DNA from: Gaiellales bacterium
GTDB taxonomy: Bacteria > Actinomycetota > Thermoleophilia > Gaiellales > JAICJC01
NCBI GenBank assembly: GCA_036273515.1
Contig: DASUHM010000026.1
Location: forward strand, 1 to 32,283
Direction of reading: 5' to 3'
DNA: 32,283 nucleotides
Shown here in pieces: positions 3,317 to 12,748 of this stretch. The position numbers and the translations under genes are program-made. The notes beneath the pieces are model-generated. The model saw only the letters and a program-made list of their open reading frames with translations. It searched no databases and was not told the origin of the DNA. Within the stretch, counting starts at the first letter, position 1. The number at the start of each line of letters is the position of its first letter.

Positions 3317-4084
3317 GTGGTGCACCCCTGGCAGTTCGTATTCGACCCGGCGTGGATCGTGGGGCTCGTCGTGATCGCCGCCGACTACGTCGTCGTGGTG
3401 CGGGCGTACGAGCGGCGGGGCCGGCCGGTGCCCACGTGGCGGCGGTGGGCGTTCGCCGCCGCGATCACGGTGACGGCGCTGGCGCTGTTCTCGCCGATCG
3501 AGCACCTGGCGCTGCACTCGATGCTGAGCTTCCATCTGCTCCAGAACGTCATGCTGGGCGACTGGGCGCCACCGCTCTTCCTGCTCGGCCTGAGCGCCGC
3601 GATGGCGCGCGACCTGGCCCGGCGGCGCTGGGTGGGGATGCTCGCGAACCCGCCGGTCGCGCTCGCGATCTGGCTCGTCGTCTGGTACGCGACCCACATC
3701 CCGGCCTTCTACGACTACGCCCTGCGGCACGAGTGGGCGCTCGGGTTCGAGCACCTCGCGTTCCTGATCTCCGGCCTCATCTTCTGGTGGCCTGAAATCG
3801 TTTCCGGCTACCTGTCCCCGGTGGGCAAGGTGTCGTACCTGGCGATCGCGTTCCTGGCCATCAGCCCGCTCAGCCTCTTCATCTACCTGGCCAACTCGCC
3901 GCTCTACAGCTTCTACGAGCACACCCCGAAGCTGGGCAACATCAGCGCCCTGGCCGACCAGCAGATCGCGGGCGTCGCGATGGCGATCGAGTCGAACGTC
4001 GTGCTCCTGACCGTGATCGCGTTCGCCCTGATGCGGCTGCTCTCCGACGCGCCCACGCCGGACGGCCCCGCGGACGTCGCTTAG
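3317..4084 (+). CDS. ctaG: Cytochrome c oxidase assembly factor CtaG (caa3 type)
   Basis: A 255-residue polytopic membrane protein of the caa3_CtaG family, needed for assembly of the copper centre of caa3-type cytochrome oxidase. About seven TM helices are visible. Family-like features are the FSPIEHLALHSMLSFHLLQN stretch in the early helices, with several conserved His residues, the WYATHIPAFYDYAL region and the FLISGLIFWWPEI helix. Length fits the family. Start: GTG GTG at 3317/3320, with TAGTGT 6 nt upstream of the first. It is convergent with the SCO gene; the stops share TTAG (4081-4084). The SCO neighbour strongly supports a copper delivery/oxidase assembly role. No oxidase subunit genes are in the window. 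Confidence 0.92.
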   Translation: MVHPWQFVFDPAWIVGLVVIAADYVVVVRAYERRGRPVPTWRRWAFAAAITVTALALFSPIEHLALHSMLSFHLLQNVMLGDWAPPLFLLGLSAAMARDLARRRWVGMLANPPVALAIWLVVWYATHIPAFYDYALRHEWALGFEHLAFLISGLIFWWPEIVSGYLSPVGKVSYLAIAFLAISPLSLFIYLANSPLYSFYEHTPKLGNISALADQQIAGVAMAIESNVVLLTVIAFALMRLLSDAPTPDGPADVA

Positions 4085-4776
4085 CCGATCGAGGAGATGG
4101 CCGACGCCACGGCCGCCGGCCGGAACGGCGGCAGGTATCCGTACCGCTCCCGCCCGTCTCGGTCGATCACGTAGAGCGCGATCGTGTGGACGACGCTGCC
4201 CGCGACGCGGATGGTCGTCTTCCCGGTCTGGACGGCCTGACCGTGACTCAGGCGCACGCCGATGTGGTACGCCTTCCACACCGGCGCGAGCGTCGCCCGC
4301 GTCCCCAGCAGCCAGCGCCACGGCTGCGTCCAGCCCGCCTGGCGGACGAACTTCGCCACCGAGGCGCGGGTGTCGGCCGGGTTCACGCTGATCACGACGA
4401 GCTCCGGGCGCCTGCCCGCCGGCAGGCGCTTCTGTACCGCGGCCAGCTGGGCGCCCTCGATCGGGCACAGGTTGGTGCAGCGCGAGTCGAGGAACGTGAG
4501 CAGCACGGTGTGCCCGTGCAGCGACGCGAGGCTGGTCATCCGACCGTCCTGGTCGGGCAGGCGCACGGCCGGCGCGGGGGTGTTCGGGAGCGTCCAGCGC
4601 AGGCCCGAGGGGCCCGACCCGTTCGACCCAGACGCCGCGGCGCCGTTCGAGTCCGGCGAGATCGCCAGGAGCACCCCGAGCGCGATGCCGGCGACGACGA
4701 GCGCGAGCACGGCCGCCTCGATCGCCGCCCGCCTCCTCGGCGGGCCGCCAACGGACTGCGGGGACGCGCCGGCCAC
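4081..4776 (-). CDS. SCO1/SenC family copper chaperone, membrane-anchored thioredoxin fold
   Basis: A 231-residue protein with a TM anchor (about 18-39), a Gly/Ser linker and a SCO domain. The copper ligands are visible: CxxxC as Cys100 and Cys104 (SRCTNLCP) and the distal His in VVHTIALYVIDRDG. The domain sits outside the membrane and is expected to load Cu into CuA of cytochrome oxidase or act as a thiol-disulfide reductant. Start: GTG 4776 gives a sensible anchor and lies 6 nt after a minus-strand TATCTT box; an ATG at 4815 is possible but would overlap the divergent gene. It shares overlapping stops with ctaG, its functional partner. Confidence 0.92.
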   Translation of the reverse strand: MAGASPQSVGGPPRRRAAIEAAVLALVVAGIALGVLLAISPDSNGAAASGSNGSGPSGLRWTLPNTPAPAVRLPDQDGRMTSLASLHGHTVLLTFLDSRCTNLCPIEGAQLAAVQKRLPAGRRPELVVISVNPADTRASVAKFVRQAGWTQPWRWLLGTRATLAPVWKAYHIGVRLSHGQAVQTGKTTIRVAGSVVHTIALYVIDRDGRERYGYLPPFRPAAVASAISSIG

Positions 4777-4781
4777 ACCCC

Positions 4782-4788
4782 CAAGATA
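4782..4788. promoter_or_regulatory. Possible overlapping divergent -10 boxes
   Basis: Minus strand TATCTT (4788-4783) lies 6 nt before GTG 4776. Plus strand CAAGAT (4782-4787) lies 8 nt before GTG 4796. The starts are 19 nt apart, so transcripts from both would be leaderless. The plus-strand box is weak. Confidence 0.35.
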
Positions 4789-4795
4789 GCGGGCC

Positions 4796-5866
4796 GTGGT
4801 AGAAGTGACGAGCATCGTGGGGGACCGCAGCCCGTCCCGGACGGCGTCGATCGCACGCCGGTCGGCGCTCCTCGCCGTCGCCCTCGCCCTCGTGGCGCCG
4901 GCGACCGCGTACGCGCACACGGGCGGGCGCATCGCCACCGACTTCGAGGCCCGCGTCATCGGCCTCGCGCCGCGCGCGCCCGGCGTCCGCGCCCGGGTGC
5001 TCGGCGGCGACGTGAAGCTCGAGCTGACCGTGTCCGGCGGCCAGGACGTCGTCGTCCTCGGACTGCTCGGCGAGCCGTTCCTGCGCTTCTCGCCGGCCGG
5101 GGTCGCCGCCAACGCCGCGTCGCCGACCGCCTGGTCGACCGGAGTCGTCGGGAGCTCGGACGCCGTGAAGTCGGCGTCCGGCCCGGCCTGGCGCCGGGTG
5201 TCGTCGGGGCACACCTACGCCTGGCACGAGAACCGCCTGCGCCCGCGCCCGTCCGTACCGGGCGGAGGGGCGACGCCGCGGCGCGTGGCGCAGTGGTCGA
5301 TCCCGCTCGTCGTCGACGGCCGGCGGACGCGCCTGGCCGGGTGGGAGTGGTACGCGAGCGGCCCACCCCCGTGGCCGTGGCTGGCGGCGTGGCTCGTGCC
5401 GCTCGCCGCGACGATCGTCGCGGTGCGGTACGGCCGCCGCCGGCTCCATCGACAGCTCGCCGCCGTGCTCGTCCCCGTCGCCGTCGGCGCCTGGCTGGCC
5501 GGCTGGATCGGGATCCTGCTCGACGGGGGAGCCTCGGCGCTCGTGCTCGCCCTGGCCGCGGCGTACGCGGCCGTCACGATCCTGCTCGTCGCCGCCGCCC
5601 TGGCCGCGGCGTCCGGGAACGCGCGGATGGCGGTCGCCGGCACCGTCGGGGCCCTGGCCGCCGTCTTCACGCTGCCCGAGATCGAGGCGTTCACGCGCGG
5701 GTTCGTCCTCTCCGCGCTGCCGGCCACGGCCGCCCGGGCGGCCGCGATCGTCTCGTTCACCGCCGGCCTTGCCCTCGTCGCCGCGTGCGTCCCGGCGATG
5801 GCCGACATCCTGCGCGACGACCCGCTCCGCCGCCGGCTTCTGGCGGGGACGCCTGACGACGGCTAG
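4796..5866 (+). CDS. Exported/membrane protein linked to SCO gene, unknown function
   Basis: A 356-residue protein. It has a signal peptide ending in ATAYA-HTGG, an extracytoplasmic beta-rich domain (about 40-195: DVKLELTVSGGQDVVVLGLL, then RFSPAGVAAN, then GHTYAWHENRL), and a C-terminal membrane domain with about five helices (roughly 200-345). Such 'signal peptide, HTGG, SCO-adjacent' proteins are common in high-GC actinobacteria, but I do not know a tested role. The His at the mature N-terminus and the HTYAWHE motif might bind metal. Possible starts are GTG 4796, 4805 and 4817; none has a good ribosome binding site, so the first 7 residues are uncertain. It is divergent from the SCO gene. 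Confidence 0.75.
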   Translation: MVEVTSIVGDRSPSRTASIARRSALLAVALALVAPATAYAHTGGRIATDFEARVIGLAPRAPGVRARVLGGDVKLELTVSGGQDVVVLGLLGEPFLRFSPAGVAANAASPTAWSTGVVGSSDAVKSASGPAWRRVSSGHTYAWHENRLRPRPSVPGGGATPRRVAQWSIPLVVDGRRTRLAGWEWYASGPPPWPWLAAWLVPLAATIVAVRYGRRRLHRQLAAVLVPVAVGAWLAGWIGILLDGGASALVLALAAAYAAVTILLVAAALAAASGNARMAVAGTVGALAAVFTLPEIEAFTRGFVLSALPATAARAAAIVSFTAGLALVAACVPAMADILRDDPLRRRLLAGTPDDG

Positions 5867-7180: not shown

Positions 7181-9510
7181 GCGGCCTGCGCGTCGTCGCG
7201 CGCGGCGGCCAGGAACGCGGTGATCTCTTCGGCCGGCGCCGGCCGGGAGAAGAGGTAGCCCTGGCCGACGTCACAACCGACGGTGCGCATGTGGGCGAGC
7301 TGGCCCTCGGTTTCGATGCCCTCGGCGACGGCTACCAGCCCGAGCGCATGGGCGAGGGCGACGACGTTGGTCGTGATGGCCGTGTCCTTGCTGTCGCGCT
7401 CGACGCCCTGCACGAACGAGCGGTCGACCTTGATCATGTCGACCGGGAAGTGGCGCAGCTGGGCCAGCGATGAGAAGCCGGTGCCGAAGTCGTCGATGGC
7501 GATGCCGACCCCGGCGTCGCGGAGCTGCTGCAGCTCGACGCGGGCGCGGTCGGCGGCGCCGCCGGGCACGATGGCCGTCTCGGTGACCTCGAGCCCCAGG
7601 TTCCGGGCCGGCAGGCCGGCCTCGCGCAGCGCCCGGTCGACGGCGGCCGGGACCCCGCCCATCGTGAGCTGCTTGCCGGAGACGTTGACCCATGTGACGA
7701 AGTCACGGCCGACGATGCCGTCGCGCAGCCAGCCGGCGGTGACGCCGCAGGCCTCCCGCAGGACGAGCTCTCCCAGCGCCGCGATCAGGCCCGACGCCTC
7801 GGCGACCGGGATGAACACGTCCGGCCCGACCGGGCCGCGGGTCGGCGACGTCCACCGCACGAGCGCCTCGACGCCCACGATCCTGCCGCCTGAGAGCGAG
7901 ATCTCGGGCTGGTAGTGGACGCTGAGCTCGTCCCGCGCAAGCGCGTAGCGCAGCTCGTTGTCGAGCCCGAGCAGCTCGTCGGGATCGCGGGCCATCTCGC
8001 TGCGGAAGACCTCGTGGCGGCCGCGGCCGGCGTCCTTGGCGGCGTACATGGCGACGTCGGCGTCGCGGACGAGCTCGTCGCCGGCGCCCTTGCCGGAGTG
8101 CAGCGCGATCCCGATGCTGGCGGCCACCTCGAGCTCGCGGCCGGCGACGACGGCCGGCTCGGCCAGCCGCGCCAGCGCCCGCCGGGCGACGCTCACGGCC
8201 AGCGCCTCGTCGGTCTGGTCGAGCAGCACCGCGAACTCGTCGCCGCCGAAGCGGGCGACGGTGTCGGTCGCGCGCACGGTCTCGGTCAGCCGGTCGGCGA
8301 CGACGCGCAGGAGCTGGTCGCCGGCGTCGTGGCCGAGGCTGTCGTTCACCTGCTTGAAGCCGTCCAGGTCGAGGACCAGCACCGCGACCTCACCGCCGGT
8401 GCGAGACGACCGCGCGAGCGCCTGCTCGAGCCGGTCGCGGAAGAGGCTGCGGTTGGCGAGGCCGGTGAGGCCGTCGTGGTAGGCCTGACGCACGAGCTCG
8501 TCCTGCAGCCGCACCCGCTCGGTCACGTCGCGGGCGTTCAGGACGACGCCGCGGATCGCGCGGTCGTTGCGCAGGTCGGTGACGTGCGCCTCCAGGGTGC
8601 GCCACTCGCCGTGCTGGTTCAGGAGCTGGAACACGATCTCCTCGGCCCGGCCGCTGGTCTGGGCGGAGCGCACGAGCGCGCGGTCGTCCGGGTGCAGGTA
8701 GCGGAGGATGCCGTCGCCGACGACGGCGTCCTCGGACGCGCCGAGCATGGCGGTGACCGAGCGGCTGACGTGGCGGCAGCCGCCGTCGCCGAGCACGATC
8801 ACGAGGTCGGTCGACGAGTCGACGATGCTGCGGAAGTGGGCCGTCTGGCGGCGGGTGGCCGCGACGAGAGCCAGGGCCAGGGTGAGCGAGACCAGCAGCC
8901 CGACCGCGCCCAGGACGGACTGCATGGCGATCAGGTTCGTGACGTCCGAGTCGCTCTGGGCGACGATCGTGCGCGCCGTGTTCAGGGCGGCGTCCGCCGT
9001 CAGCATGGAGAGCACGCGCAGGCGCGCGAGGGGTGCGCTCACCGCCAGGTGCTCGCCGGCGGTCAGCGGCACGGACGACGCCGGCCGGCCGGCGAGATAG
9101 GCGGCGCCGGTGGCGGTCATGTCGTCCACGAGCCGCCGCTCCTGGATCAGCTGCGCGCGTACGACCGGGGCGGTGGTCGGCCCCAGCTTGGCCTGATCGT
9201 CGTTGCCCGGGACGGCGGGCACGGCGCCGCCGTCGAGCAGGGCGTCCGTGCTCAGGCGCATGATCGTCGCGGTCACGTCGGGATCCGACTGCTGGCCGGC
9301 GCGGACGAGCATCACCTGCTGGACGTACTCGGAGGCGAGCGTCTGCTGGCGCTCGGCGACGCGGAGGACCTCGGCGCGGTGCTGGGTGCGGGCCGTCTGC
9401 CAGATCGAGAGGCCGACGCTCGCCGTCGAGCAGAGCGCGAAGGTGACCAGGATGGCAACGATCGGCTTGCGGCCACGGGAGGCGTACGGGGTGAATGCGG
9501 GTGCGCGCAT
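7177..9510 (-). CDS. Membrane sensor with PAS, GGDEF and EAL domains (c-di-GMP turnover)
   Basis: A 777-residue protein: TM1 (about 15-38), an extracytoplasmic sensor region of about 155 residues, TM2 (about 194-218), PAS (about 222-335, linker ARDVTERVRLQDEL), GGDEF (about 342-505) and EAL (about 520-770). The cyclase signature GGDEF is intact (422-426). The phosphodiesterase residues are present too: EALVRW, WVNVSGKQ, LEVTETAI, DDFGTGFSS, MIKVDRSFV, AEGIET and GQGYLF. Both activities are therefore possible; the net direction is not predictable. ATG 9510 overlaps the cupredoxin stop as TGATG (9508-9512), suggesting coupled translation and a shared FliA-like promoter. In many dual proteins one domain is regulatory despite intact motifs. 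Confidence 0.95.
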   Translation of the reverse strand: MRAPAFTPYASRGRKPIVAILVTFALCSTASVGLSIWQTARTQHRAEVLRVAERQQTLASEYVQQVMLVRAGQQSDPDVTATIMRLSTDALLDGGAVPAVPGNDDQAKLGPTTAPVVRAQLIQERRLVDDMTATGAAYLAGRPASSVPLTAGEHLAVSAPLARLRVLSMLTADAALNTARTIVAQSDSDVTNLIAMQSVLGAVGLLVSLTLALALVAATRRQTAHFRSIVDSSTDLVIVLGDGGCRHVSRSVTAMLGASEDAVVGDGILRYLHPDDRALVRSAQTSGRAEEIVFQLLNQHGEWRTLEAHVTDLRNDRAIRGVVLNARDVTERVRLQDELVRQAYHDGLTGLANRSLFRDRLEQALARSSRTGGEVAVLVLDLDGFKQVNDSLGHDAGDQLLRVVADRLTETVRATDTVARFGGDEFAVLLDQTDEALAVSVARRALARLAEPAVVAGRELEVAASIGIALHSGKGAGDELVRDADVAMYAAKDAGRGRHEVFRSEMARDPDELLGLDNELRYALARDELSVHYQPEISLSGGRIVGVEALVRWTSPTRGPVGPDVFIPVAEASGLIAALGELVLREACGVTAGWLRDGIVGRDFVTWVNVSGKQLTMGGVPAAVDRALREAGLPARNLGLEVTETAIVPGGAADRARVELQQLRDAGVGIAIDDFGTGFSSLAQLRHFPVDMIKVDRSFVQGVERDSKDTAITTNVVALAHALGLVAVAEGIETEGQLAHMRTVGCDVGQGYLFSRPAPAEEITAFLAAARDDAQAA

Positions 9511-9965
9511 CACGGCTTCCCGATCAGCAGGACGGCGTGCATCCCGCTCATGTAGTGGCCCGCCATGTTGCAGAAGATCTCGTAGCGACCCGGGCGCAGC
9601 CGGAGCGTCAGCCCGCGTACGCTGCCCGGCACGCCGGGCTCGAGCGAGCCGACCTCCTCGGGGGCGAGGGCGTCCTCGTTCACCGTGAGGCCGTCGGTGC
9701 GCAGCGGCAGCCTGGTGCCCGCGGGATCGCGCACCACGATCAGCTCGTGCAGGTCGGGGCCGTCGTTCTTCACCTCGAGCCGGACGCGGCCCGGCGCGAG
9801 CCGCCGCGGCGCGCGGATGTGGAAGTCGCGCTCGGTGATGCGGACGACCTGGACGGACGGCTTGCTGCTGCCGCCGGCTCCGCTCCACTCGGCGAACGCG
9901 AGCAGGCCTGCGCACGCGAGCATGCCCGCGAGGAGTGCAGCCGGCCGGTGAAGAGCGGTGACCAC
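9510..9965 (-). CDS. Cupredoxin-like exported copper protein
   Basis: A 151-residue protein with a signal peptide or N-terminal anchor (ALHRPAALLAGMLACAGLL) and one cupredoxin domain. Type 1 copper ligands can be traced: a His in DLHELIVVRD, then Cys in GRYEIFCNMAGHYMSGMHAV, followed by His and Met in the usual C-x(n)-H-x(n)-M order. It would act outside the membrane as an electron carrier or copper-binding sensor. GTG 9965 was chosen because it begins the signal sequence and lies 10 nt after the -10 of a FliA-like promoter; an ATG at 10073 would reach into the divergent gene. It is coupled (TGATG) to the GGDEF-EAL gene, an unusual partner. Confidence 0.8.
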   Translation of the reverse strand: MVTALHRPAALLAGMLACAGLLAFAEWSGAGGSSKPSVQVVRITERDFHIRAPRRLAPGRVRLEVKNDGPDLHELIVVRDPAGTRLPLRTDGLTVNEDALAPEEVGSLEPGVPGSVRGLTLRLRPGRYEIFCNMAGHYMSGMHAVLLIGKP

Positions 9966-10041: not shown

Positions 10042-10497
10042 GTGCAGCCCGGAGCCACCGTCCCCAGCGTCATCGTGTTCGACCAGGACGTGCAGCCGGT
10101 CGACCTGGCCGGCCTGGCCGCCGAGGGGCCGTTCCTGCTCTCGTTCTACCTGTACGACTGGACCGGCACCTGACGGACACAGCTGCGGCTCCTGCGTGAC
10201 AGGAGCGACGAGTTCACGGAGGCCGGGGTGCGCCTGTTCGCGGTCTCGCGCGACAGCCCGTACTCGCACAAGCGCTACGCCGAGCAGCAATGGCTGACCT
10301 ATCCGCTGCTCTCCGACTGGACGGCGGCCGCGGTGCGGGCGTTCGGCGTCAGCCAGACCCTGGACGGGCTGGAGGACACCCCGGTGCGCAGCTGCTTCCT
10401 GGTGGACGGCGACGGGGTGATCCGGGGCACGTGGCGATACGGCGACGACGAGGTGCCGGACGTCGACGAGCTCCTGACCGCCGCCCACGCCTTGTGA
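10042..10497 (+). CDS. Selenocysteine-containing peroxiredoxin-like protein (AhpC/TSA family), in-frame TGA
   Basis: A 151-codon frame with an internal TGA at codon 44 (10171-10173) and stop at 10495-10497. Before the TGA it reads FLLSFYLYDWTGT, and directly after it RTQLRLLRDR. In AhpC/TSA thioredoxin-fold peroxiredoxins the peroxidatic cysteine follows this 'FY..dwTgt' stretch, so TGA stands exactly where the catalytic Cys belongs. Downstream sequence is full-length and family-like (LFAVSRDSPYSHKRYAE, YPLLSDW, RSCFLVDGDGVIRGTWRYGD, VPDVDELL) with normal codon bias. A hairpin fit for a bacterial SECIS lies just after the TGA. It would reduce peroxides in the cytoplasm. No resolving Cys four or five residues on; Leu is there instead. 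Conventional annotation would call only the last 89 residues from 10228. The alternative is a nonsense mutation. Confidence 0.82.
10188..10206 (+). promoter_or_regulatory. Candidate bacterial SECIS hairpin
   Basis: A perfect 7-bp stem, GCTCCTG (10188-10194) with CAGGAGC (10200-10206), encloses loop CGTGA with G and U in the apical part. The loop begins 22 nt after the in-frame TGA, inside the range accepted for bSECIS elements (about 16-37 nt). The hairpin is within coding sequence, as usual for bacterial SECIS. Confidence 0.62.
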
Positions 10498-10573: not shown

Positions 10574-10771
10574 ATGACCACCGTGCGAACCGCCGTCGCA
10601 GGCGCCACCGTGCTCGCCCTCGGGGCCGTGCTCGCCGCCCCGGCGCTCTCGACCCGGGCGACGGTGGTTGCCGCCGCGCTGCTCGCTCCCGCCGGCGCCG
10701 TCGTCGCGGTCGCCGCCTCACGGGCGCTGTCGATCTGGATCGACGCCGCGGTCGCTCGCATGGATCGCTAG
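10574..10771 (+). CDS. Small two-helix membrane protein
   Basis: A 65-residue protein with two hydrophobic segments (about 8-26 and 30-52) and a short charged tail (ARMDR). No family recognised. Support for coding comes from GC3 bias, an ATG 7 nt after a FliA-like -10 box, and a stop that overlaps the convergent NRAMP gene as CTAG (10768-10771), the same arrangement used by other convergent pairs in the window. The promoter class would place it in a motility or c-di-GMP regulon, which is inference. Confidence 0.62.
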   Translation: MTTVRTAVAGATVLALGAVLAAPALSTRATVVAAALLAPAGAVVAVAASRALSIWIDAAVARMDR

Positions 10772-12099
10772 AACAGGCCGGCGAACGTCTGGACGAGCAG
10801 GAAGACGTTCAGGCAGACGATCACGGCCGCGACGGCGACCGCTGCGACGGTCGTGATCGGCCGGTTCGTCAGCGTCCCCATCAGGTCGCGGTTGCGGCAG
10901 AAGATCACGAGCGGGATCAGCGCGAAGGGGATGCCGAACGAGAGCGCGACCTGGGAGAGCACGAGCGCCTTGGACGGGTCGAGCCCGACCGCGAGCACGA
11001 TCATGGCCGGCGCCATGGTCACCGCCCGGCGCAGGAAGAGCGGGATCGACCTGCGCACGAAGCCCTGCATGACGACCTGGCCGGCCAGCGTGCCGACCGA
11101 CGACGACGAGAGCCCGGACGCGAGCAGGGCGATGCCGAACATCGTGTCGGCATGCGAGCCGACGACCTTCCCGAGCATGTGCGACGCCTGCTCGATGCCG
11201 TCCACTCCGGTGAAGCCGTTCGCGTGGAAGACCGCGGCCGCGGTGATCAGCATCGACATGTTGACGACGCCGGCGATCGACATCGCGATGACGACGTCGA
11301 TCAGCTCGAAGCGGAAGATGCGCCGGCGCGCGGCCGGCGTGGCGCCGACGACGCGCCGCTGCGTGAGGGCGGAGTGCAGGTAGATCACGTGCGGCATGAC
11401 CGTCGCGCCCAGGATGCCGGCCGCGAGCAGCACGCTCTCTGAGCCGTCGAAACCGGGCACGAACAGCCCGTGGGCGATGCCGTGCGGCGAGGGATCGGCG
11501 TTGAAGACCTCGAAGGCGAACCCGGCCACGATCAGGCCGACCAGGCCGACGATCACGGCCTCGAGGTGGCGGAAGCCGCCCCGCGTCTGCAGGGCCAGGA
11601 TCGCGAACGCGAAGACGCCGGTCAGGAGGCCCGCCCACACCAGCGGGATGCCGAAGAGCAGGTTCAGGCCGAGCGCGGCGCCGATGAACTCGGCCAGGTC
11701 GGTCGCCATCGCGATCAGCTCGGCCTGCACCCAGAGGCCGAACGTGACCGGCCGCCGGAACTGCGACCGGCACACCTCGGGCAGGTTCATCCCGGTGGCG
11801 ATGCCGAGCTTGGCGCTCATCGACTGGATCAGCATCGCCATCAGGTTCGAGGCCAGGATCACCCACAGGAGCAGGTAGCCGAACTTGGCCCCGCCGGCGA
11901 TGTTCGTCGCGAAGTTGCCCGGGTCGACGTAGGCGACGGCGGCGATGAAGGCCGGCCCGAGGAACGGCCAGGCGGCGCGCAGGCCGCGGCGCTCGCCGTT
12001 CAGCGACCGCTCGGCCGCCTCGAGCACGCGCTGCTCGCCCGGCAGCGCGACGGGCGCCGAGGGGAGCGGAAGAGCTGCCGACTCAGCCGGCGGCGGCAT
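10768..12099 (-). CDS. mntH: NRAMP-family divalent metal (Mn2+/Fe2+) transporter
   Basis: A 443-residue NRAMP transporter with 11-12 TM helices, importing Mn2+ or Fe2+ with protons. The metal-binding helix 1 motif DPGN is present (AYVDPGNFATNI), and helix 6 carries the A-T-V-M-P-H motif (GATVMPHVIYLHSAL), which matches the conserved MPH of family members. ATG 12099 is preceded by GGAG (minus strand) and gives the usual short cytoplasmic N-terminus. The gene begins 17 nt inside the end of the upstream DtxR/MntR regulator gene, so the pair forms an operon in which the regulator is made first. Control is expected through the palindrome in front of the regulator. The symbol reflects family and context; Fe2+ cannot be excluded. 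Confidence 0.94.
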   Translation of the reverse strand: MPPPAESAALPLPSAPVALPGEQRVLEAAERSLNGERRGLRAAWPFLGPAFIAAVAYVDPGNFATNIAGGAKFGYLLLWVILASNLMAMLIQSMSAKLGIATGMNLPEVCRSQFRRPVTFGLWVQAELIAMATDLAEFIGAALGLNLLFGIPLVWAGLLTGVFAFAILALQTRGGFRHLEAVIVGLVGLIVAGFAFEVFNADPSPHGIAHGLFVPGFDGSESVLLAAGILGATVMPHVIYLHSALTQRRVVGATPAARRRIFRFELIDVVIAMSIAGVVNMSMLITAAAVFHANGFTGVDGIEQASHMLGKVVGSHADTMFGIALLASGLSSSSVGTLAGQVVMQGFVRRSIPLFLRRAVTMAPAMIVLAVGLDPSKALVLSQVALSFGIPFALIPLVIFCRNRDLMGTLTNRPITTVAAVAVAAVIVCLNVFLLVQTFAGLF

Positions 12100-12748
12100 G
12101 CTCCGCTCCCACCTCGATCTGGGCCGCCAGCGAGCGGCCGATCGCATGCCGGCTGCCGCGCACCTCCACCGTGACCGGGCCGTCGAACGGCGCCTGCTCG
12201 ACGACGGTCACCTCCTCCGCCGGGACCAGGCCGAGCGAGGCCAGGTAGCGCAGGAGCTCCGGATCGCTGTCGGGCACGCGGCGGACGACCGTCATGCTGC
12301 CGGCGTCGAGGTCGCTCAGGCACACGAGCTCGTCGCGCACGAGCAGCAGCTCGGGCGAGGGGATCGGGTCGCCGTGCGGGTCGCGGGTCGGGTGGCCGAG
12401 CGCCTGGTCGATGGCCGCCTCGAGCTCGTCGGACAGGTGGTGCTCGAGCCGCTCGGCCTCCTGGTGCACCTGATCCCACGTCAGCCCGAGCGCCTCCATC
12501 AGGTAGAGCTCGAGCAGGCGGTGGTGGCGCACGACCTCGAGCGCCATCCGCTCTCCGGCCGGGGTCAGGGTGGCGCCGTGGTAGCGCTCGTGCACGACCA
12601 ATCCGAGCGTCGCGAGCTTCTTCAGCATCGCGGTCGCGGAGGCGGGCGTGACTCCGAGCGACTCGGCCAGCGCGCTCGTGGACATGTCGCCCGTGCGCTC
12701 GAGCTTCCAGATCGCCTTTAGATAGTCCTGCGCGGATTCGCTGACCAT
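12083..12748 (-). CDS. DtxR/MntR-family metal-dependent repressor
   Basis: A 221-residue regulator with all three expected parts: a winged helix (1-72; SALAESLGVTPASATAMLKKLATLG as the recognition unit), a dimerisation/metal domain (about 73-140; LEVVRHHRLLELYLMEALGL, then EAERLEHHLSDELEAAID) and an FeoA/SH3-like C-terminal domain (about 150-215). The metal ligands of the family (Glu/His pairs in HRLLE and EAERLEHHLS) are present. Full length is closer to DtxR/IdeR than to short MntR, yet the operon partner is an NRAMP transporter, so Mn or Fe sensing is open. It probably represses its own operon through TTAGACGCGTCTAA 14 nt upstream of its start. Confidence 0.94.
   Translation of the reverse strand: MVSESAQDYLKAIWKLERTGDMSTSALAESLGVTPASATAMLKKLATLGLVVHERYHGATLTPAGERMALEVVRHHRLLELYLMEALGLTWDQVHQEAERLEHHLSDELEAAIDQALGHPTRDPHGDPIPSPELLLVRDELVCLSDLDAGSMTVVRRVPDSDPELLRYLASLGLVPAEEVTVVEQAPFDGPVTVEVRGSRHAIGRSLAAQIEVGAEHAAAG

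Follow-up and report, generated by a model that had tools for sequence, protein, structure and literature searches.

The window analysed here is a stretch of 32,283 nucleotides, comprising the entire contig C26 of a Gaiellales draft genome (4.07 Mb, 98 contigs, 96.6% complete). It contains a gene predicted to encode a peroxiredoxin with an in-frame TGA at its active site. The relevant features are as follows.

10042..10497, forward strand: predicted AhpE-like selenocysteine (Sec) peroxiredoxin gene, 151 amino acids with U44; presumed GTG start, TGA stop at 10495-10497
10171..10173, forward strand: in-frame TGA, codon 44, predicted to be read as selenocysteine; peroxidatic position, T41-G-T-U44
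10188..10206, forward strand: putative bSECIS hairpin, 7 bp here, inner 6 (CUCCUG/CAGGAG) conserved in most of the family
10195..10199, forward strand: apical loop of the putative bSECIS, CGUGA, with G in loop position 2, then U; probable SelB contact

A first-pass annotation of this DNA had described one frame broken by a single TGA at codon 44. This is correct; the frame runs from GTG at 10042 to the TGA at 10495-10497. The same annotation warned that gene callers would lose the N-terminal part of the protein. Indeed, the list of standard-code open reading frames holds the C-terminal 89 amino acids alone (10228-10497), and 62 of the 151 residues are dropped. Because callers treating TGA as a stop leave this 89-residue fragment, which lacks the catalytic residue, mis-annotation is likely throughout this lineage of peroxidases, whose hosts are soil and sediment bacteria, most of them uncultured.

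Conserved neighbours of the window copy were apparent from synteny with one genome only, G002, which is of the same genus. Downstream of the peroxiredoxin, on the opposite strand, an Nramp-family metal transporter (10768-12147, reverse) adjoins a DtxR-type metal-dependent repressor with a FeoA domain (12083-12748, reverse). Divergent to the peroxiredoxin is a small protein (9510-9950, reverse) with a weak, below cut-off, match to SoxE (sulfocyanin). Further away, an open reading frame at 4081-5214 (reverse) has a C-terminal SCO1/SenC thioredoxin-fold domain. Note that, in relatives, we judged those large open reading frames adjoining the gene that have no Pfam matches to be shadow frames.

The predicted protein belongs to the AhpC-TSA family. 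A single Pfam match (PF00578) covers residues 4-128, reading across the TGA, with an E-value of 1.6e-26 and 93.1 bits against a gathering score of 26. The best PDB sequence matches are entries for Mycobacterium tuberculosis AhpE (1.5e-15). In the alignment, residue 44 falls on the catalytic, peroxidatic Cys of AhpE, where the first-pass annotation had placed it by reference to AhpC/TSA proteins. Using 35 members of the family, we obtained an AlphaFold2 model with a mean pLDDT of 96.2. On superposition, the best fold match was Sulfolobus solfataricus Bcp4 (TM 0.94), and AhpE gave a TM of 0.90 with 35% identity in the fold alignment. The active site retains T41, three residues before U44, and R116, which is invariant across the family alignment. 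In the PxxxTxxC/U motif, the Pro is replaced by Leu37. Most of the family also has Leu, and a few members have Pro. The protein has one other Cys, C118; most family members have Ala at that position, and no second Cys is conserved. The position five residues after U44, where a PrxQ-type resolving Cys would lie, is not Cys. The chain thus lacks a resolving Cys, as is typical of AhpE-type 1-Cys enzymes.

One alternative to a selenoprotein is that the window copy is a pseudogene, a normal Cys peroxiredoxin into which a nonsense mutation, or an error in sequencing, has brought a stop. A single TGA does interrupt an otherwise standard peroxiredoxin frame and, as described below, the assembly yielded neither selC nor selD. 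The codon itself tells otherwise. Our scan of 84,980 species genomes recovered 79 related loci, and 75 of these, counting the window and drawn from Thermoleophilia and similar metagenome-assembled genomes (MAGs), have a readable active-site motif. The active-site codon is TGA at 68 loci, TGC or TGT (Cys) at seven, and nothing else at any. Such a pattern is produced by a Sec site and not by a nonsense mutation; besides the window, 67 loci spread over many genera have the identical TGA. An in-frame UGA aligned with the Cys of homologues is a criterion for bacterial selenoproteins, and such an alignment is seen here. The first-pass annotation had proposed this comparison, and had said that sense codons in close relatives, together with decay of this copy, would weigh against its reading. 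We did not find that combination. Comparison of the source genome with G002 gives a dN/dS of about 0.23 for the part before the TGA and about 0.17 for the part after it. Values of around 0.2 on either side indicate that both halves of the gene are under purifying selection, contrary to expectation for a pseudogene.

The closest named relatives, judged by the peroxiredoxin gene, are Thermoleophilia MAGs, among which GZL_FP_2_bin.148 is 85% identical. In our survey of 61 genomes (60 relatives and the source genome), 29 have a copy in which TGA occupies this codon, and four relatives have a Cys version. From these comparisons, dozens of relatives within the Thermoleophilia, most of them uncultured, carry the same predicted gene. 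The family members L149, L160 and L183 come from MAGs that bear the labels Burkholderiales, Acidobacteriota and Chloroflexi. In the tree, L149 and L160 group with actinobacterial members, and these two were therefore likely mis-binned or mislabelled.

A bSECIS hairpin is a further criterion for bacterial selenoproteins. A perfect 7 bp hairpin, starting 15 nt after the TGA and with its loop at 22 nt, had been claimed, and both positions are accurate. The arms are GCUCCUG (10188-10194) and CAGGAGC (10200-10206), flanking the loop CGUGA (10195-10199). The hairpin starts at the 15th nucleotide past the TGA and the loop at the 22nd, leaving 21 nt between. Published constraints for bSECIS elements are a loop of 3-9 nt, a stem of 4-16 bp, G in loop positions 1-2, a distance of 16-37 nt from the UGA and a minimum free energy of -7.5 kcal/mol or below (PMC13188914). 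With a 5-nt loop, 7 bp, 21 nt and -10.8 kcal/mol, the hairpin lies inside this range, as had been suggested. Note that the energy of the entire 55-nt stretch is not unusual when compared with shuffled sequences (z 0.28). Hence, the hairpin in this single sequence is not significant alone, and its significance as a predicted element comes from conservation across relatives. The 17-nt hairpin core occurs once in the window.

Conservation of the hairpin is evident at the level of codons. Across the 68 TGA genes, the hairpin codons CTC CTG CGT GAC AGG are nearly invariant, and the loop is CGUGA in 65 and CGGGA in three. Counting from the TGA, codon +6 is CTC in 66/68, +7 is CTG in 68/68, +8 is CGT in 65/68 and +10 is AGR in 68/68, whereas elsewhere in the same genes the frequencies are 60%, 32%, 6% and 5%, respectively. 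For Arg in particular, CGT and AGG are seldom used in the rest of these genes (6% and 4%). Fisher tests of hairpin codons against the remainder of the TGA genes give 9e-12, 8e-32, 7e-49 and 3e-57 (+6, +7, +8 and +10); these ignore descent, overstate the independence of related sequences, and are best read as large effects, not exact probabilities. Covariation was unusable as a test because the inner stem hardly varies. The Cys homologues differ: CTC is present in 2/7, CTG in 5/7, CGT in 0/7 and AGR in 1/7, and the codons are mostly CTG, CGC and CGG. Since the hairpin codons are frozen in TGA genes and not in Cys homologues, the plain reading is a constraint at the RNA level coupled to the TGA. 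A pseudogene would not be expected to show this. Taken with the dN/dS values and with the TGA being conserved throughout the order, it leads us to reject a nonsense mutation or sequencing error, which we now regard as extremely improbable.

The reading of this gene as a selenoprotein was to stand or fall with the presence of selenocysteine machinery, and a search for selA, selB, selC and selD had been recommended. The first two were found and the last two were not. On contig C35, selA (508 bits, cut-off 268) and selB (360 bits, cut-off 242) lie together, and selB has the C-terminal SelB winged helix. A second selenoprotein candidate is a Sec-type formate dehydrogenase alpha subunit (G000:C62:22950-24836, L216) with an in-frame TGA, DSCNRT-U-HAPSVVGL. 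The hairpin after this TGA contains GGUCUG, which we take to be shared with the E. coli fdhF element. Most relatives giving a strong match also have a TGA-containing formate dehydrogenase. Among the 61 genomes, selA or selD is present in all 29 that have the TGA peroxiredoxin and in 16/32 of the others (Fisher, 3e-6).

Neither selC nor selD was found in the draft assembly. A pattern search of the genome for selC returned nothing. All matches to the Rfam tRNA-Sec model (RF01852) are ordinary tRNAs according to ARAGORN (Ser, Leu, Arg, Tyr, Trp, Asp and Met), and an ARAGORN tRNA call inside selB looks spurious. Three weak, sub-cut-off, selD matches are probably related AIR-synthase-type proteins. 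Both same-genus genomes, G001 and G002, have selD, and G001 has tRNA-Sec (selC) with anticodon TCA. In G002, which is 82% complete, selC was not found. Searching the syntenic places with DNA from G001 and G002 found neither gene here. At the selD locus, the best match lies at the end of contig C64 and is a tRNA-Leu; because its anticodon differs from that in G002, no gap is proven. At the site of selC in G001, the sequence continues here into a different gene with no contig end, and nothing there points directly to a gap. As a separate observation, selD itself has an in-frame TGA in several genomes of one neighbouring family (G011, G014, G017, G020 and G030) and, because of this, SelD is probably a selenoprotein there.

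These absences could mean that a genuine selenoprotein lineage is represented here by a species that recently lost selC and selD, so that UGA now acts as a stop. Both genes are missing from an assembly that is 96.6% complete, and other sequence occupies the place of selC in G001. Set against this, selA, selB, the Sec formate dehydrogenase gene and the peroxiredoxin gene are all intact, and the latter two keep their hairpins. The peroxiredoxin is under purifying selection relative to G002, the assembly is a draft in 98 contigs, and G002 keeps selD even though selC was likewise not found there. Consequently, we think recent loss very improbable. Given the intact state of the four genes, an incomplete assembly is the likeliest explanation for the absence of selC and selD, a gap being assumed.

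It is also conceivable that the ribosome inserts Trp or some other standard amino acid at the UGA, with no involvement of selenium. An in-frame TGA permits this, and nothing specific speaks for it. The only alternative codon at the site is Cys, the position is that of the peroxidatic Cys, and the peroxiredoxin gene itself terminates with TGA. Moreover, a putative bSECIS, SelA and SelB are present. We give this idea almost no credence. Instead, we conclude that the gene very probably encodes an AhpE/Bcp-type 1-Sec peroxiredoxin, with the codon-44 UGA decoded as Sec by means of SelB and the hairpin. The original proposal of a peroxiredoxin-like selenoprotein is thus supported by conservation of the TGA, by hairpin codons tied to it, and by selA and selB.

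On a quick, unrooted tree of 73 family members, four changes between Sec and Cys are needed, and the natural reading of that unrooted tree is that Sec is the ancestral state. The four exchanges, with altered hairpin codons in the Cys forms, provide a natural experiment, useful for testing what advantage Sec gives to a peroxiredoxin and as training material for bSECIS finders. One genome, G004 (L107, G004:C105), has a Sec copy and a Cys paralogue. The latter has an in-frame TAA near its start, departs from frame at its end and looks decayed.

How might the enzyme work? We envisage that SelB, carrying Sec-tRNA(Sec), would bind the hairpin, whose loop follows the UGA after 21 nt, and deliver its cargo to the ribosome. 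The UGA at codon 44 would then be decoded as selenocysteine. In other peroxiredoxins, T and Arg hold the peroxidatic residue. By analogy with the family, the U44 selenolate, held by T41 and R116, would attack H2O2 or an organic peroxide and become a selenenic acid. Given that C118 varies in the family and that this protein has no Cys at the PrxQ resolving position, we propose that the selenenic acid would most likely be reduced by an outside small thiol or redoxin and not by a resolving Cys of the protein.

Gene order in relatives offers a lead on the reductant. Upstream of the peroxiredoxin, on the same strand, 44 related loci have a gene for a GCS2/YbdK-type carboxylate-amine (glutamate-cysteine) ligase (for instance, L125:2531-3976). 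All four ligases tested score above the cut-off for TIGR02050. In more than half of the 44 loci, the end of the ligase match lies 135-200 nt upstream of the active-site codon; hence, the ligase adjoins or overlaps the start of the peroxiredoxin. The ligase gene is not beside the window copy. Note that the physiological role of YbdK-type ligases is uncertain. Going by gene order, a thiol derived from gamma-glutamylcysteine is a candidate reductant in relatives with the ligase neighbour, and this can be tested. Tentatively, and with more doubt than confidence, we suggest that soil Thermoleophilia may have a clade-specific selenium peroxidase system, pairing the Sec peroxiredoxin with a gamma-glutamylcysteine-type thiol made by the upstream YbdK/GCS2 ligase. 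If so, the Sec peroxiredoxin would behave as a bacterial counterpart of glutathione peroxidase.

Sec-containing peroxiredoxins with a TxxU motif are an established bacterial selenoprotein family (PMC1794560, PMC9312934, PMC13188914), as the first-pass annotation had said. A literature search by title and abstract, pairing selenoproteins with Thermoleophilia, Gaiella, Rubrobacter or AhpE, returned no description of the present one; subscription papers lay mostly outside that search. The known Sec peroxiredoxins (Prx, TxxU; Bcp/COG1225), such as PrxU of Eubacterium acidaminophilum (NF040737), share the AhpC-TSA fold, Sec at the peroxidatic position and T three residues before it. However, the protein described here scores 43.3 bits against the NF040737 cut-off of 270, has Leu for the Pro of PxxxTxxU, and comes from a different clade of organisms. 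The thiol peroxidase Prx-SUH (NF045827) is also Sec-containing and of the same superfamily, but its motif is CxxU (table of PMC13188914), and our protein scores 19.5 bits against a cut-off of 298. PrxQ/Bcp enzymes have the same fold, S. solfataricus Bcp4 being the best fold match, but the PrxQ-type resolving Cys, five residues after U44, is missing here. The greatest likeness in sequence is to the 1-Cys enzyme AhpE of M. tuberculosis (PDB 1XXU, 4X0X), which is the best PDB sequence match, superposes with a TM of 0.90 and has the conserved Arg116; AhpE has Cys and the motif Pro where our protein has predicted Sec and Leu. Because it is far below the PrxU and Prx-SUH cut-offs, is closest in sequence to AhpE and has Leu for the motif Pro, the protein is apparently an AhpE-like Sec peroxiredoxin from an uncatalogued lineage of the known Sec-peroxiredoxin kind.
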